DNA of 34,714 bases from a virus. The stretch is taken from positions 1 through 34,714 of the IMG/VR virus record IMGVR_UViG_3300010148_003052; one strand, written 5' to 3'. The notes under the pieces are model-generated. The model had not been told where the DNA came from. It worked only from the letters and a program-made list of their open reading frames with translations, and did no database searches. The position numbers were made by a program, and so were the translations under genes. This document shows, piece by piece, positions 6,005 through 22,134 of the stretch (positions are counted from its first letter, which is position 1; every line of letters starts with the position of its first letter).

Positions 6005-6133
6005 TTAAAATATATATCTGATTGTGTTTAAATTAAAATATTTACTATATAACTTTTTGAAATTATCTAATGCTCTAGCTTTTTTTCTTACAGGATACCT
6101 AAGTGTACCACTAAGATTTTTAGGTTCATCAGA
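6005..6133 (-). pseudogene. In-frame continuation of the SPL-like gene beyond TAG
   Basis: Directly after the TAG the same frame stays open for 42 codons to a TAA at 6005-6007. It encodes SDEPKNLSGTLRYPVRKK, then ARALDNFKKLYSKYF and NLNTIRYIF. The pattern RY...K....F..L....N.IRYIF is what I expect at the C-terminus of SPL-family proteins. No ATG, GTG or TTG start lies in frame after the TAG, so it is not a separate gene. It ends two bases before the next ATG. Confidence 0.65.
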
Positions 6134-6841
6134 CTATTTCATAAGTTCACGGGCTTCTTCACTTGCTTTATTCATTTGAAATACATGATTAGTAAGTGCT
6201 ATTACTTCACACTTATTTTCACCTGCATATTTCTTTACAAATTTAAATAAATTTTCATATTCAATACTCCATCCAGGATAGAATATTAAAGGTGAATAGT
6301 TAAGATGTACTTCCCATCCAAGTTCTTTAAGTCTATTAACATCTTTTATTCTTGACAATATCTTTTGCATCTTTGGCTCAAGTATATTAGAATATTTTTG
6401 TGGCATTAAACTTACACGAACTCTAGGTTTTTTGTTAAAATGATTCACATCTAACTTCAATAAACCAGGATACTTAGTAGCCATAGTAGTATTAAGTCTA
6501 GGATGATCATCATACCTTTTTATATAGTCATGTAGTGACTCAGGCATTTTTCTTTGCATCAAAACTAAATCTGAATTGCATGCAATGTCTACCATTGTAT
6601 ATATTGGATCTTGTTGATTAGGAACTTTATTATAAGTTTTTTCCCATTTAACTACAGAGTTAAATATCTCATCAACATTTTCATTGACAAATACTCTGTG
6701 GCCATTGTATCTAGACATATAACAATATGTGTCTATACAACCCCCAAAACATCCGTAAATTATATTAGGAGCTATACAATCACTACTATTATTGTTAGTT
6801 TTAGTAACTAAAGTCTTTGTCTTTTGATACTTTATGGCCAT
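6134..6841 (-). CDS. SPL-family radical SAM protein, C-terminally truncated by TAG
   Basis: 235 aa to the TAG stop. N-terminal APNIIYGCFGGCIDTYCYMSRY is the cluster-binding region of the spore photoproduct lyase-like (SplB/COG1533) radical SAM family. Its Cys spacing is CX3CX4C rather than the common CX3CX2C. Downstream are the expected barrel strands: YTMVDIACNSDLVLMQ, RVRVSLMPQKYSNILEP, and LKELGWEVHLNYSPLIFYPGW. Characterised members use SAM and a 4Fe-4S cluster to repair UV-induced thymine lesions; for phage members the substrate is unknown. The frame continues after TAG for 42 residues that look like the normal C-terminus (next entry). The protein may therefore be non-functional, functional but shortened, or made by readthrough. 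Confidence 0.75.
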   Translation of the reverse strand: MAIKYQKTKTLVTKTNNNSSDCIAPNIIYGCFGGCIDTYCYMSRYNGHRVFVNENVDEIFNSVVKWEKTYNKVPNQQDPIYTMVDIACNSDLVLMQRKMPESLHDYIKRYDDHPRLNTTMATKYPGLLKLDVNHFNKKPRVRVSLMPQKYSNILEPKMQKILSRIKDVNRLKELGWEVHLNYSPLIFYPGWSIEYENLFKFVKKYAGENKCEVIALTNHVFQMNKASEEARELMK

Positions 6842-9999: not shown

Positions 10000-10452
10000 C
10001 TATACTGCAGTAATAATAGGTGTCTCAGCCGTAGCTCCAACTATATTACTTTCATCCATAAAGAATTCATCTAAGTCAATTGCATCTGGATTTACGGCAA
10101 ACATATTGATTAGATCTCTAATCTCTTCTTCTGTTACTATGTAGTGCTCTGCACACGTATCCATTGATCTTCTTTCTTCTTTAATTTTAGTGCCATTTGC
10201 TCTTGGCTTTCCTTTTACAGGAACTGGATCTCCATTATCATCTAGTTTTTGTACCATATGATAACTTTGTTTCATAAACTTTGATATTACTACGAACATC
10301 TTTTCCCTAGGTGAGAATAAACACTCAACATAAGGACAATCATCAGTAATAGGAATCATTTTGAAACTTTTCATTTGACCAAAAGCACTTTTAATTAATA
10401 GCATGCTCTTAGGATTATTTTCAATGTAGGTTTTTGTTTTTTTCTTTGTCAT
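10000..10452 (-). CDS. Hypothetical phage protein (150 aa)
   Basis: 150 aa, beginning MTKKKTKTYIENNPKSMLLI. A beta-rich first half (FKMIPITDDCPYVECLFSP, MFVVISKFMKQSYHMVQ) carries a short loop with basic residues (VKGKPRANGTKIKEERR). The C-terminal half is acidic (NPDAIDLDEFFMDESN). Ends with TAG and, two codons on, TAA. It has its own TAnnTTTG box upstream and a strong terminator downstream, so it may be a single-gene transcript. No family recognised. Confidence 0.7.
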   Translation of the reverse strand: MTKKKTKTYIENNPKSMLLIKSAFGQMKSFKMIPITDDCPYVECLFSPREKMFVVISKFMKQSYHMVQKLDDNGDPVPVKGKPRANGTKIKEERRSMDTCAEHYIVTEEEIRDLINMFAVNPDAIDLDEFFMDESNIVGATAETPIITAV

Positions 10453-17159: not shown

Positions 17160-17499
17160 TAATTTTCATTGTTTTTAAGGCCCATACAGGCATTTTTTTA
17201 CTATTTAAAATATCTATCCATTCTTTTGCAGAAGGTATGTAGTTATTACAATCTTCTCTAACATGCTGCTCTGCAACATATCTTGTATACACGGTTTTAC
17301 CATCAGAATTAGTAAACTCTGTACCAAATTTTCTTTCACACTCAAATATACCTTCACTATGATGACGAAACATTCTGTGCATTTGACTACCAAGCCAAGC
17401 TTTAGTTTCATCCATCCAATTATGTATATGCATGTAATCCTCTGGTACACCACCAAACTTCCTTACAGAAGACTTGGCATGTATATTAGGATGAGCCAC
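17152..17499 (-). CDS. DUF6915 family protein (115 aa)
   Basis: 115 aa. It contains HIHNWMDETKAWLGSQMHR, FRHHSEGIFECERKFG, TRYVAEQHVREDCNNYIPS and KEWIDIL, the order of His- and Glu-rich motifs I know from the DUF6915 family found in bacteria and phages. The conserved His residues (RHHSEG, EQHV.ED) could bind metal, but no activity is established. It overlaps the downstream 116-aa gene and the upstream DUF6878 gene. Confidence 0.75.
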   Translation of the reverse strand: MAHPNIHAKSSVRKFGGVPEDYMHIHNWMDETKAWLGSQMHRMFRHHSEGIFECERKFGTEFTNSDGKTVYTRYVAEQHVREDCNNYIPSAKEWIDILNSKKMPVWALKTMKIND

Positions 17500-17884
17500 T
17501 TAATAATTCTACTAATTTATTTGACTCATCTAAATCATAAGAATGATCTTCACTTACACGTTGTGTATGATCTATTGTAGACTCACCTGTTTCTAAATCA
17601 ACTCTTAATAAACCCCAGCCTCCATCATTATTGACCCAATCCCATTCAATATTTTCTGATAATAGGTTATAAAAATATTCATCTAGAACTTGTAATATAT
17701 TATTACGGTTTGCAATGTTTAAAATTTCTTCTTTATGATCATAACATTGAAGATCATCTATACAGCCATCATCTCCACCTCCTGAGTATGAGATTTCAAA
17801 ATAGCTTACGTTCATGTCCTTAAGTTTTTGTATTGCTATTTTTTCTTCTAGAGTTAGCTCTCTGTTGTGATTTCTTCCCCACAT
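17486..17884 (-). CDS. DUF6878 family protein (132 aa)
   Basis: 132 aa. Residues 30-42 read EISYSGGGDDGCI, and the second half has WDWVNNDGGWGLLRVDLETG followed by ESTIDHTQRV, the signature parts of DUF6878 proteins. Function unknown. If the first ATG is used, it overlaps the end of the RusA gene by 65 bases; an internal ATG at residue 24 would shorten the overlap but cut a likely helix. DUF6878 and DUF6915 genes side by side next to MoxR/VWA suggest a functional link. Confidence 0.7.
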   Translation of the reverse strand: MWGRNHNRELTLEEKIAIQKLKDMNVSYFEISYSGGGDDGCIDDLQCYDHKEEILNIANRNNILQVLDEYFYNLLSENIEWDWVNNDGGWGLLRVDLETGESTIDHTQRVSEDHSYDLDESNKLVELLSGSS

Positions 17885-18248
17885 TTTTTAAAATTTTAAT
17901 TTCTACACCTGGATTTTCTTTATCATATTTATAGGTTTCAAATCTTGGAATAATATATGTCATATTATCATCCTCAATCCATCCATGTTTGACCATATCA
18001 TCTTGCACTGTCTGTGCAGGATTAATATAATCAAACTTGTGACGGGTACCTCTTATAAATTTAAATGATACTATTACAGGAAGATCATGTTTAGATAATT
18101 CTTTAACAAAAGACGCAGCATGTTGTTTATAATACTTTGCTGTATCTTTTCTATACTTCATAACTGTTTTACTAGATATAAAATATTTACCAGTCCATCT
18201 TCTTCCATTTTTACTACTAGGAACATTCCCAGGTATAAACCACTTCAT
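17820..18248 (-). CDS. rusA-like: RusA-type Holliday junction resolvase
   Basis: 142 aa. Begins MKWFIPGNVPSSKNGRRWT, the typical substrate-binding N-terminus. Catalytic acidic residues are seen in HKFDYINPAQTVQDDMVKHG and WIEDDNMTY, matching the DxD...D...DD pattern of RusA. RusA dimers cut four-way DNA junctions in late replication and recombination, before packaging. The C-terminal 25 residues are basic and overlap the next gene. Its ATG overlaps the stop of the primase gene (ATGA). Confidence 0.85.
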   Translation of the reverse strand: MKWFIPGNVPSSKNGRRWTGKYFISSKTVMKYRKDTAKYYKQHAASFVKELSKHDLPVIVSFKFIRGTRHKFDYINPAQTVQDDMVKHGWIEDDNMTYIIPRFETYKYDKENPGVEIKILKNVGKKSQQRANSRRKNSNTKT

Positions 18249-19225
18249 GATTTTAAAGTTTTAATTAATAACTCTTTTAACTCATGATGCACTTTATCAA
18301 AACCATATTCACATACAGCATCTGATAGATCTTTACTTAAAGTTAGATGAAATCCATTAATGTCATACAAACTCTTGTATTTATTAATTGCATTTACACC
18401 CGCTGCATCATTATCAAACAAAGTTATAACTTTTTTGTACTTATTCTTTAAATTTTCAATTATATATGGTTTTATTACAGTATTTTCTGAGTCAGGAGCA
18501 ATAACTTCTAAGTTATAACCAAACTGTTTGAGACACATTGCATCTTTTAATGATGAACATATAACAAGATAGGGTTGATTATAACTAAGTTGGTCAAATC
18601 CCTGCAAATAAGCCTTCACCTTTATAAATTTATACTTCTTATGGCCTGGTTGATATATTTTATATACTTCACCATCCTTATCAAAGTATCCATATAGTTT
18701 AGGATTGCTAATCTGAAGAGTTTTTACACCGTCCTCATCATCTTTAGACATATTATAATATTCCAAAGCTTTTACATTATACTCATCTAACATAGATTTA
18801 CCTACATTAAATGATAACCAAAACCTTTGATCTAATTTATTCCATGATCTTTCATGACAATAATCTACTTTATACTTTGCCTGTTGTTTAAATACAGACT
18901 GGTTATACACACCTTTATCTAAAGTAAACTTATTATAATCTTGTACAATCTTAAATACTGCTTTAGAGTAATCTAGATTAAATATTTCTTTTATTAAATC
19001 TATCTTACTACCGTAATTACCTGTAGAAAAGTCCTTGTATTTATACTGATTATTAACTTGATCAAAAAAAATCCACATACTAGGTGTTCTTTCACCTGGG
19101 TTAAATATGGATTTTATCTTTACATTCTGACCGCTAAGTCTTTCTGGTAAATCTAGATAATATTCAAATACCCATGTGCTGGGTATATCATTTTCATTCA
19201 GTTTTAAATTCTTGGTACTTATCAT
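18245..19225 (-). CDS. DnaG-like primase with TOPRIM domain, no zinc-binding Cys
   Basis: 326 aa. The N-terminal part has KSIFNPGERTPSMWIFFD and YKYKDFSTGNYGSKIDLIKE, equivalent to the CHC2 region of DnaG but lacking the Cys/His set. The TOPRIM domain is recognised by YLVICSSLKDAMCL, followed by VITLFDNDAAGVNAINKY (DxD) and LSKDLSDAVCEYG. The usual Glu of TOPRIM motif 1 (EGxxD) is Ser here; some phage primases carry S/T-K-S-xKD at that place. It likely makes RNA primers for the family B polymerase and works with the DnaB-like helicase. Confidence 0.8.
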   Translation of the reverse strand: MISTKNLKLNENDIPSTWVFEYYLDLPERLSGQNVKIKSIFNPGERTPSMWIFFDQVNNQYKYKDFSTGNYGSKIDLIKEIFNLDYSKAVFKIVQDYNKFTLDKGVYNQSVFKQQAKYKVDYCHERSWNKLDQRFWLSFNVGKSMLDEYNVKALEYYNMSKDDEDGVKTLQISNPKLYGYFDKDGEVYKIYQPGHKKYKFIKVKAYLQGFDQLSYNQPYLVICSSLKDAMCLKQFGYNLEVIAPDSENTVIKPYIIENLKNKYKKVITLFDNDAAGVNAINKYKSLYDINGFHLTLSKDLSDAVCEYGFDKVHHELKELLIKTLKS

Positions 19226-19232
19226 AATAAAT

Positions 19233-19253
19233 GAGGGGGCATTACACCCCCTC
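19233..19253 (-). terminator. GC-rich hairpin upstream of primase start
   Basis: GAGGGGG-cattaca-CCCCCTC, 7 base pairs, seven bases downstream of the SSB-like stop and eight before the primase ATG. The minus-strand tail is ATTTATTAT, a weak U tract, so it may be a partial terminator or a structure that tunes primase translation. Confidence 0.5.
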
Positions 19254-19259
19254 TATTAT

Positions 19260-19970
19260 TTATAGTTCAAAATCAGAACCTCCACCGCTTTTTGCTTCAA
19301 AGCTCATGTTAGTCTGGTTTGGATCTGTTTTTTTAACTAAAGCTCTTACATGTGTAGCTTTGTCAAATGTCATCAATCTTGATTTTGTTGTGTCAACATC
19401 AACACCTTCAACAGGTACACCATCTTTAGATATTCTAGGTAAATAAAGATCATCATTTACATAACCTTCTTTATTTTCCCATTCTCTTGAACCAATACAT
19501 GCATTGAAAAAGTCACCATTTTTAAATACATCATTGCATTTAACCATAAAATCTTCAATAGTACCAGCTTCAATAGAATCTAGAGCATCTCTCTTACCTA
19601 ATTGTTCAGATAAAAATATCATAGATTTAAGAACTTCTTGATCTCTTTCAATTTCTCTACCACTTGGAAGTGTAGTATCTTTGAAAGGATAAGGACTGTA
19701 TCTAACTCTACCTACTTGACCTTCATATCTACCTTTAGACTGATCAGCCATATCTTTGAAGAAACCTTCAAAATCTCCACCTACTGGCTGTGTCTCAACA
19801 TGTAGCATAATATTATACGCTTCAGAATCATAAGGTGTTTTATCAAATGTAACAGAATTGATTCTAATTACATGATTACCTGGACCCAATACTGGTTTTG
19901 TGCGTCCGCCTCCAGCAGACATGTCTTTTGTACTTAACATAGTTTTACTTTTTAAATTTAATTCACTCAT
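19260..19970 (-). CDS. SSB-like single-stranded DNA-binding protein
   Basis: 236 aa. After GGGRTKPVLGPGNHVIRINSV comes a beta-rich part (YNIMLHVETQPVGGDFEGF, KDMADQSKGRYEGQVGRVRYS), consistent with phage SSB/DUF669-like OB-fold proteins. The C-terminus is a Gly-rich linker ending GGGSDFEL, like the acidic hydrophobic tails by which SSBs bind partners. It sits between the Sak4-like ATPase and the primase, the normal place for a phage SSB. No catalytic motif. Confidence 0.65.
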   Translation of the reverse strand: MSELNLKSKTMLSTKDMSAGGGRTKPVLGPGNHVIRINSVTFDKTPYDSEAYNIMLHVETQPVGGDFEGFFKDMADQSKGRYEGQVGRVRYSPYPFKDTTLPSGREIERDQEVLKSMIFLSEQLGKRDALDSIEAGTIEDFMVKCNDVFKNGDFFNACIGSREWENKEGYVNDDLYLPRISKDGVPVEGVDVDTTKSRLMTFDKATHVRALVKKTDPNQTNMSFEAKSGGGSDFEL

Positions 19971-19981
19971 AATTACTTAAT

Positions 19982-20662
19982 TTAGTTTTCATATTTGATT
20001 ATACAATCTTTTACAAGTTGTAGATCATTGTTTATAAACGGGTCATCAAACATACCCATTGGAGATTTACATGTGTTTTCTCCATTATTTTGTGTATCAA
20101 AGCCATATTCCAGGCCATCTTCTGTTTTCTTTACTCTACCAAATAGTACAATAGAAAACAAACCTTCCAAAGTTAAAGCATTATCTATCATTTTACCTAC
20201 AGTTTTTGCTTTTACTTTTCTGTGTCCATTAATATCAGTTGATTCTTCTGAATGAGTTAAGAAAAATATAGTCAGATCATCTCTCATATCTTTAGGCATC
20301 TTAGCAACCTGTGCTAAGTTTGCTGCAATTTGAGTAAACTTATCATAACCTTTTTCATTAGCTCTATCAAAATATTCAAAGCTGGACATATATTGCCAGT
20401 CATCAATAACTAATGTATTGATATGCGGCATCTTATCATTTACATGCTGCATAGCCTTAATAATACCAGGTGCAGTTGAAGCAGAAGTCATATTACCTTT
20501 TGGATTTTCTTTACTAATGTTTGTGTAATTCTTCTTCCAACCCTTAAATGGTAAAGGCTTGTTAGCAATGTTAATAATAAAAGTTTCTTTAGGAAGTAAG
20601 TTCCTAATTGATGTGGACTTTCCAGTCCCTGAGTCAGCAATGACTAATACACTCTGTGCCAT
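19982..20662 (-). CDS. Sak4-like P-loop ATPase (single-strand annealing/RecA-like)
   Basis: 226 aa. Walker A DSGTGKSTSIRNL at residues 9-21, Walker B INTLVIDDWQYM near 85, followed by a DLTIFFLTHSEES segment like the RecA-fold motif 3. Short length and lack of extra domains match phage nucleotide-binding proteins of the Sak4 type, which assist single-strand annealing with the phage SSB. The SSB-like gene is directly downstream (11 bases). Confidence 0.8.
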   Translation of the reverse strand: MAQSVLVIADSGTGKSTSIRNLLPKETFIINIANKPLPFKGWKKNYTNISKENPKGNMTSASTAPGIIKAMQHVNDKMPHINTLVIDDWQYMSSFEYFDRANEKGYDKFTQIAANLAQVAKMPKDMRDDLTIFFLTHSEESTDINGHRKVKAKTVGKMIDNALTLEGLFSIVLFGRVKKTEDGLEYGFDTQNNGENTCKSPMGMFDDPFINNDLQLVKDCIIKYEN

Positions 20663-20668
20663 ATTTAA

Positions 20669-21181
20669 TTATTTTAATTTTTTACTTATACTTAATAGTG
20701 CTCTTTCAATTCCTTTTAGCACATCTAACATATTTCTTTCTGTTTCTGGATTAGGAATAGTGAAGTCATCAATAGATGCTATCTTCTTTTCTTCTCTATC
20801 AGTAACATCATTCATTACTTTTAATTCAGATACAGGAATAATATGCCTTTCAAAACCAGAACTACTTGTTATTAATTCATATTCCTCTTTCCAATGAGGA
20901 TTATTTTTTATTAAATACAAGGTTCTTTTAGGATCTTCTGTTTCATATTCAATACTTACAAACTCTGTGTAAATATCTCTACCCTTTTCTAATTCACTTG
21001 GGAAGAATGATACATGCAGATCATCTTTACCTGTTGGCCTGTAAGCCATCTTAGGTATATATAAAGCATTTATAATTCCATTCTTTTGAAAGAAATCTTC
21101 ATGCTCTTCTCTGAGTTTAGCAACTCTTTTTTTGCGTTCAGCTGGAGTCATAACATTACATTTTATTTTAGTACTTATCAT
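20669..21181 (-). CDS. Hypothetical protein in replication cluster (170 aa)
   Basis: 170 aa, starting MISTKIKCNVMTPAERKKRV; an internal ATG at residue 11 is a possible start. A beta-rich centre (DDLHVSFFPSELEKGRDIYTEF) is followed by polar segments and a C-terminal helix (ERNMLDVLKGIERALLSISKKLK) likely to form a coiled coil. Lies between the DnaB-like helicase and the Sak4-like ATPase with two- and six-base gaps. Helicase loader or accessory protein is possible by position only. Confidence 0.6.
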   Translation of the reverse strand: MISTKIKCNVMTPAERKKRVAKLREEHEDFFQKNGIINALYIPKMAYRPTGKDDLHVSFFPSELEKGRDIYTEFVSIEYETEDPKRTLYLIKNNPHWKEEYELITSSSGFERHIIPVSELKVMNDVTDREEKKIASIDDFTIPNPETERNMLDVLKGIERALLSISKKLK

Positions 21182-21183
21182 AA

Positions 21184-22134
21184 TTATCTTCTTTCTTGTT
21201 GAGGTGGTGTGTCCATTTCATGTATCTCCATCTTTTCAAAAGCAGCTTTGAAAAAACTCATACGTGTATCACCATTTCTTGCTTTTAAGAAATGTAATAC
21301 TAATGTTTTATCATCTTGTATTATATATCTATCTGGTCCATACAATCTAATTTTTTGTTTAGCAGGACGGTTAATGCCTATTAAAGTATCAGCATGCTGT
21401 AGCATTGCATCTGAGCCAAATATATCTGACTCAAGTACATAGTTACCATACTTACCATCTATTGCTCTATCAGGATTATCAATATTTCTATTTAACTGTG
21501 ATAAACAAATAAACAAACATGGATATTCACGTTTTACTTGTGTAAAAAACTCACCTAATTCAAACAACATATCTAATCTATTATTTTGATATGGTGCTCT
21601 TTTAACTAGAATACTATGATCCAGTGTAATTATTGTTCTTTCACCTTTATGTTCATTCATATAATGATCAACAGTTTCTCTCATTTGATTAACTGTCATA
21701 GGTGTAGATACAATATCTACTGGATATTTAATTCTTTCTTTAGAGTATTCATGACATTTAGTAAATGTTTCAGAGTCAAGAACACTACCAGCACTACATA
21801 ATTCTTTATATGTTTTGCCTGTAATAGAACTAAACTCTCTTAATGCTGAGGTTCTACCCACCATTTCAAATTGAAATTCTAATACTCTATATTTTTCTGC
21901 AGGATTTAATACAAAAGATTCTCTTATTATTTGATCTTTAATTAGTGTTTTACCTGATCCAGGTCTACCACCAATAACTGTAAGAGTATTCCATTCTAAA
22001 CCATCAGTCACTGCATCATTAAATTTAGGCCACGGTGTTTGTATAGATTTTTCTTTACCGCTTTGCCTATCAAGCATATATTTAAGTGCTTCATTAAAAG
22101 CTGTGTATTGACCATTCCATGGTTTATTTTTCAT
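21184..22134 (-). CDS. DnaB-like replicative helicase (C-terminal domain only)
   Basis: 316 aa. Walker A TVIGGRPGSGKTLIKDQI near residue 55, then RVLEFQFEMVGRTSALRE (motif H1a/H2 region), Walker B ERTIITLDHSILV, and LFICLSQLNRNID, the motif H3 Gln region. A later LHFLKARNGDTRMSFFKAAF matches the R-finger/strand end of DnaB. The N-terminal primase-interacting domain of cellular DnaB is absent, as in several phage helicases. Overlaps the upstream gene (ATGA). Confidence 0.85.
   Translation of the reverse strand: MKNKPWNGQYTAFNEALKYMLDRQSGKEKSIQTPWPKFNDAVTDGLEWNTLTVIGGRPGSGKTLIKDQIIRESFVLNPAEKYRVLEFQFEMVGRTSALREFSSITGKTYKELCSAGSVLDSETFTKCHEYSKERIKYPVDIVSTPMTVNQMRETVDHYMNEHKGERTIITLDHSILVKRAPYQNNRLDMLFELGEFFTQVKREYPCLFICLSQLNRNIDNPDRAIDGKYGNYVLESDIFGSDAMLQHADTLIGINRPAKQKIRLYGPDRYIIQDDKTLVLHFLKARNGDTRMSFFKAAFEKMEIHEMDTPPQQERR

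Follow-up and report, generated by a model that had tools for sequence, protein, structure and literature searches.

Spore photoproduct lyases (SPL) are DNA-repair proteins, whose solved structures, 4fhc among them, are by sequence also the solved relatives of the protein studied here; bacterial proteins of the TIGR03886 family are further relatives. Genes with in-frame TAG codons are known from TAG-recoding phages such as the code 15 Crassvirales. Phages of Bacteroidota include recoding ones, and about half of the TAG-recoded phages carry a suppressor tRNA-CUA (PMC11210395).

The window analysed in this study, a virus contig of 34,714 bases in IMG/VR from an uncultivated marine phage, harbours an SPL-like radical SAM gene interrupted by an in-frame TAG. 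It resembles the code 15 phages in that an uncultivated phage, probably one infecting Bacteroidota, has such a codon, but differs from them because only one gene is affected, TAG is otherwise a real stop and a suppressor tRNA was not found. Among the explanations considered, a recent nonsense mutation which would remove an integral part of the fold is the best one, and we regard it as fairly probable.

Organization of the interrupted gene

The SPL-like open reading frame (6134-6841, minus strand) encodes 235 residues and closes with ELMK-TAG. Past this codon the frame stays open over 42 codons, SDEPKNLSGTLRYPVRKK...NTIRYIF, up to a TAA; after two further bases the next gene, of 46 codons, begins with its ATG at 6002-6000 (Table 1). 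The frame coordinates therefore bear out the original prediction of an in-frame TAG after ELMK followed by 42 intact codons.

Table 1. Features of the interrupted SPL-like gene and its surroundings in the window.
Feature	Position	Strand	Basis
Full SPL-family radical SAM frame, 278 codons and TAA, broken at codon 236	6005..6841	-	TIGR03886, PF20903, homologues of 276-281 residues
Stretch of 235 codons ahead of the stop, including every invariant cysteine (C31, C35, C40)	6137..6841	-	Alignment; dN/dS
In-frame TAG, codon 236; sense codon in 72/72 intact homologues	6134..6136	-	Homologue comparison
Orphaned C-terminal tail, 42 codons, with K241, R248, Y249, K254 and Y265	6008..6133	-	Family-invariant residues; strand-helix-strand in model
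TAA, ordinary stop of the family	6005..6007	-	68/73 IRYIF-ending frames
Next operon gene, 46 codons, starting 2 bases after the TAA	5862..6002	-	Alignment to sisters

At positions 1-960 of the window (plus strand) a repeat-rich protein is encoded, with GCTDPTxxNYNPxAxxDDGSC repeats and a terminal T9SS type A sorting domain (PF18962, TIGR04183). Judged from these domains it is apparently a phage-encoded T9SS substrate, pointing to a host from the Bacteroidota.

Family identity of the protein

Both the short and the read-through form of the protein match PF20903 (spore photoproduct lyase) with 1e-16 and 61 bits, the cut-off being 27. Both also match the TIGR03886 profile (E 2e-37 for the short form, 1.7e-40 for residues 7-278 of the read-through form), but only the read-through form is aligned up to the final profile position (346/346), which answers the proposed alignment with full-length members of the SPL family. 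For TIGR03886 equivalogs the curated cut-off lies at 437.55 bits, which neither the window gene (139 bits) nor its phage relatives (134-163 bits) reach; on these scores all of them are to be classed as relatives and not as equivalogs. Bacterial members (L204-L208) belong to the same profile family and share with the window protein the C-terminal motif LRY...K...F...RYxF, but the window protein is without about 60 N-terminal residues. The C-terminal RY...IRYxF element is encoded in the window, yet it lies behind the TAG and would be missing from the translated product.

Comparing the predicted fold with SPL structures gives Foldseek values of 1e-08 and TM scores of 0.54-0.59; 4fhc, which accompanies the PF20903 profile match, is the best fold match (1.1e-08, TM 0.59). 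However, the identity to 4fhc is 18%, the window protein has two additional residues between cysteines 2 and 3, and the spore-specific lesion is not expected for a phage of a non-sporulating host. With PHROG no match at a useful E-value was obtained, and none of 50,697 records of named phages matches the protein. Taking profile and fold together, the gene is best described as a distant relative of the DNA-repair spore photoproduct lyases, and its product may, going by its family, repair thymine lesions or carry out another radical reaction on nucleic acid.

Homologues and the codon at the interruption

Relatives of the SPL-like protein are encoded at 75 IMG/VR loci, many of them on contigs of 110-120 kb. 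All homologues which reach the gene end (72/72) are open through codon 236 and end with IRYIF; their lengths vary from 276 to 281 residues, and none is as short as 235. Not a single one stops at the position of the TAG, in agreement with the original prediction of a split gene. If the residue at the site is counted as number 43 from the end, so that rows with a nearby insertion may be one residue off, it is Tyr in 38 of the 72 homologues and otherwise Arg, Leu, Phe, Met, Ala, His, Lys, Glu or Trp. Because of this variation the site is, as far as the alignment tells, tolerant of change, while the tail behind it contains residues invariant in the family (K241, R248, Y249, K254 and Y265). The comparison with sister phages, which had also been suggested, gave a sense codon in all intact homologues and TAT in the three closest relatives. 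As most homologues have a Tyr codon here, a single substitution accounts for the TAG. At the regular gene end, 68 of the 73 frames ending with IRYIF (the window's included) stop at TAA and five at TAG.

Two pattern searches of IMG/VR for the TAG allele found it nowhere else; when the base in question was left free, four contigs matched the site, all with TAT or TAC. A second record of the same strain covering the SPL site was not found in IMG/VR.

The bacterial genome collection contains three matches, all in MAG contigs; we regard them as phage sequences that were binned with bacteria, not as hosts. One of them (L113; WLWP01000004.1), which at 114,697 bases has the size of a full phage and carries an SPL homologue, was assigned to a Pseudomonadales MAG and is probably a mis-binned phage.

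The 42-residue tail

The tail is identical to that of the sister phages G001 and G003 in 41 of 42 residues. The bacterial TIGR03886 proteins show a corresponding tail (K..S....LRYRTGWKGRWLxRF...MPYCxVRYAF), and the similarity of the 42 residues to phage as well as bacterial C-termini is far beyond chance; by sequence they are the normal C-terminus of the family. The family C-terminus given in the original prediction was correct: the cellular members end with LRYRTGWKGRWLxRFxxLLAExMPYCxVRYAF. In the predicted structure the tail forms a strand-helix-strand block with pLDDT 80-96; residues 12-40, the region of the cysteines, are weakly modelled. An internal restart in the tail was ruled out because the tail contains no in-frame start codon (ATG, GTG or TTG).

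Age of the interruption

On the DNA level the tail is 98.4% identical to G001 and 96.8% identical to G003, while the upstream part reaches about 85% (85.4% with G001). This highly similar patch (about 6180-6010, minus strand) covers the gene end with 97-100% identity to the two sisters and declines in the next gene, and the remaining sequence of these two phages is only about 80-85% identical to the window. Such a short patch suggests recombination among sisters. The dN/dS of the upstream part against sisters is 0.05-0.11 (about 0.08), within the range found between intact sisters. Because the tail belongs to a probably recombinant patch about 98% identical to a sister, there was little time for decay, and together with the normal upstream dN/dS the difference between 98.4% and 85.4% indicates a recent event. 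The intact tail thus speaks, by these comparisons, for a recent stop and not for readthrough.

When nine related records were scanned pairwise, only one interruption, the stop at 6136, was supported by more than one intact homologue (8/8); the other matches rest on single queries and are interpreted either as shadow frames on the antisense strand or as starts that were extended too far. Generally poor sequence or general decay was rejected, as no other sense-strand gene of the window is broken with multiple support.

Possible explanations for the TAG

The gene shows the pattern of a recent nonsense allele (pseudogene): one stop breaks a frame that is intact in every other respect and open in the relatives. 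A single substitution would have changed a tyrosine-type codon into TAG, the gene staying intact in the rest of the phage lineage. Translation would then stop after 235 residues, and the product would be misfolded or inactive, since it would lack the strand-helix-strand at its C-terminus and with it the conserved motifs RY and IRYIF. Such an allele would be of very recent origin and might be a minor variant that became fixed in a single consensus; the gene would not be strictly needed in every infection. However, the intact downstream frame is also predicted by readthrough. A programmed or tolerated amber readthrough would give two products of 235 and 278 residues, and the intact, family-like frame past the stop fits to it; we consider it improbable, and slightly more so the version in which the codon, just acquired by the lineage, is read through usefully during infection. 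The stop is conserved in no relative, a suppressor tRNA is not known in the group, and the RNA around the stop is no more structured than shuffled sequences (z -0.24 and -0.35). Because the DNA past the stop is nearly identical to that of stop-free sisters, nothing there evolved for readthrough, and the intact tail is already accounted for by recency. That the short protein is a functional, selected variant is more doubtful still: the iron-sulphur residues and most barrel residues do precede the stop, but homologues are never this short and the tail residues are conserved throughout the family, in phages and bacteria, and modelled in the fold.

The strongest competitor of the nonsense mutation, although clearly less probable, is a base error, i.e. 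a TAG present only in the assembled consensus of an intact phage gene. It concerns a single base in a single record, no conspecific contig with TAG is available, and neither the tail nor the rest of the gene has decayed. On the other hand, the window has no other broken gene, and a second IMG/VR record (L124; 3300025101_001613), in which the same strain seems to be present, is 99.98% identical to the window over 17263-21349, short of the SPL gene. Within these 4,087 bases the two records differ at one base, which exchanges Asn and Asp in the product of gene 18245-19225, so that the consensus is reproducible and the assembly looks accurate in this region, though L124 may come from a related assembly. 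A recoding of TAG to sense, as in some Crassvirales, is the least probable of all and hardly worth considering, even if the T9SS sorting domain points to a phage of the Bacteroidota, a phylum with recoding phages (PMC11210395). Three conserved window genes ending with TAG (at 10000, 11038 and 24106) stop exactly at the homologue ends, with 0 residues over on either side and further stops soon after; outside the SPL gene, TAG acts in the window as a true stop. Homologue residues (43) are left unmatched past the TAG in the SPL gene alone, and no other conserved gene is interrupted, whereas code 15 implies TAG as sense in many genes. Because the TAG stops coincide with homologue ends, recoding is rejected, as the original prediction had done for the genome as a whole; going by the homologue ends only a use in one gene could survive. 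A tRNA with anticodon CUA was found neither in the 34,714-base window, to which the search in the phage's own genome applies, nor in five near-complete sisters (113-120 kb) and three partial relatives. The window encodes only tRNA-Arg(tct) and the five sisters Arg, Leu(taa), Met(cat) or none, so the suggested suppressor receives no support from the sister phages. Nonsense mutation, base error and readthrough, the three options originally offered, can therefore be ranked in this order, with readthrough as a poor third.

Relevance and the cysteine motif of the phage family

In itself the finding is a small one, a nonsense allele or base error in one metagenomic phage record. It serves as a warning, since annotation pipelines will truncate the SPL-like gene; should the stop be genuine, the phage may be able to do without this gene under certain conditions or in certain hosts. 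It also draws attention to a phage family of radical SAM proteins that is conserved and apparently has not been described.

The spaced-out cysteine motif of this family may deserve more attention than the stop codon. The window protein contains CX3CX4C (residues 31-40; 6718-6751, minus strand). Over the window protein and 70 homologous loci this spacing (GCFGGCxxTYCYM) is found in nearly all members; of 74 phage-family sequences 71 have it, while three (L056, L074 and L075) have CX3CX3C. The bacterial members and the solved SPL possess CX3CX2C, a spacing which is not found in the phage family. Nearly all of its sequences are thus, according to the alignment, characterized by a conserved two-residue insertion between cysteines 2 and 3.
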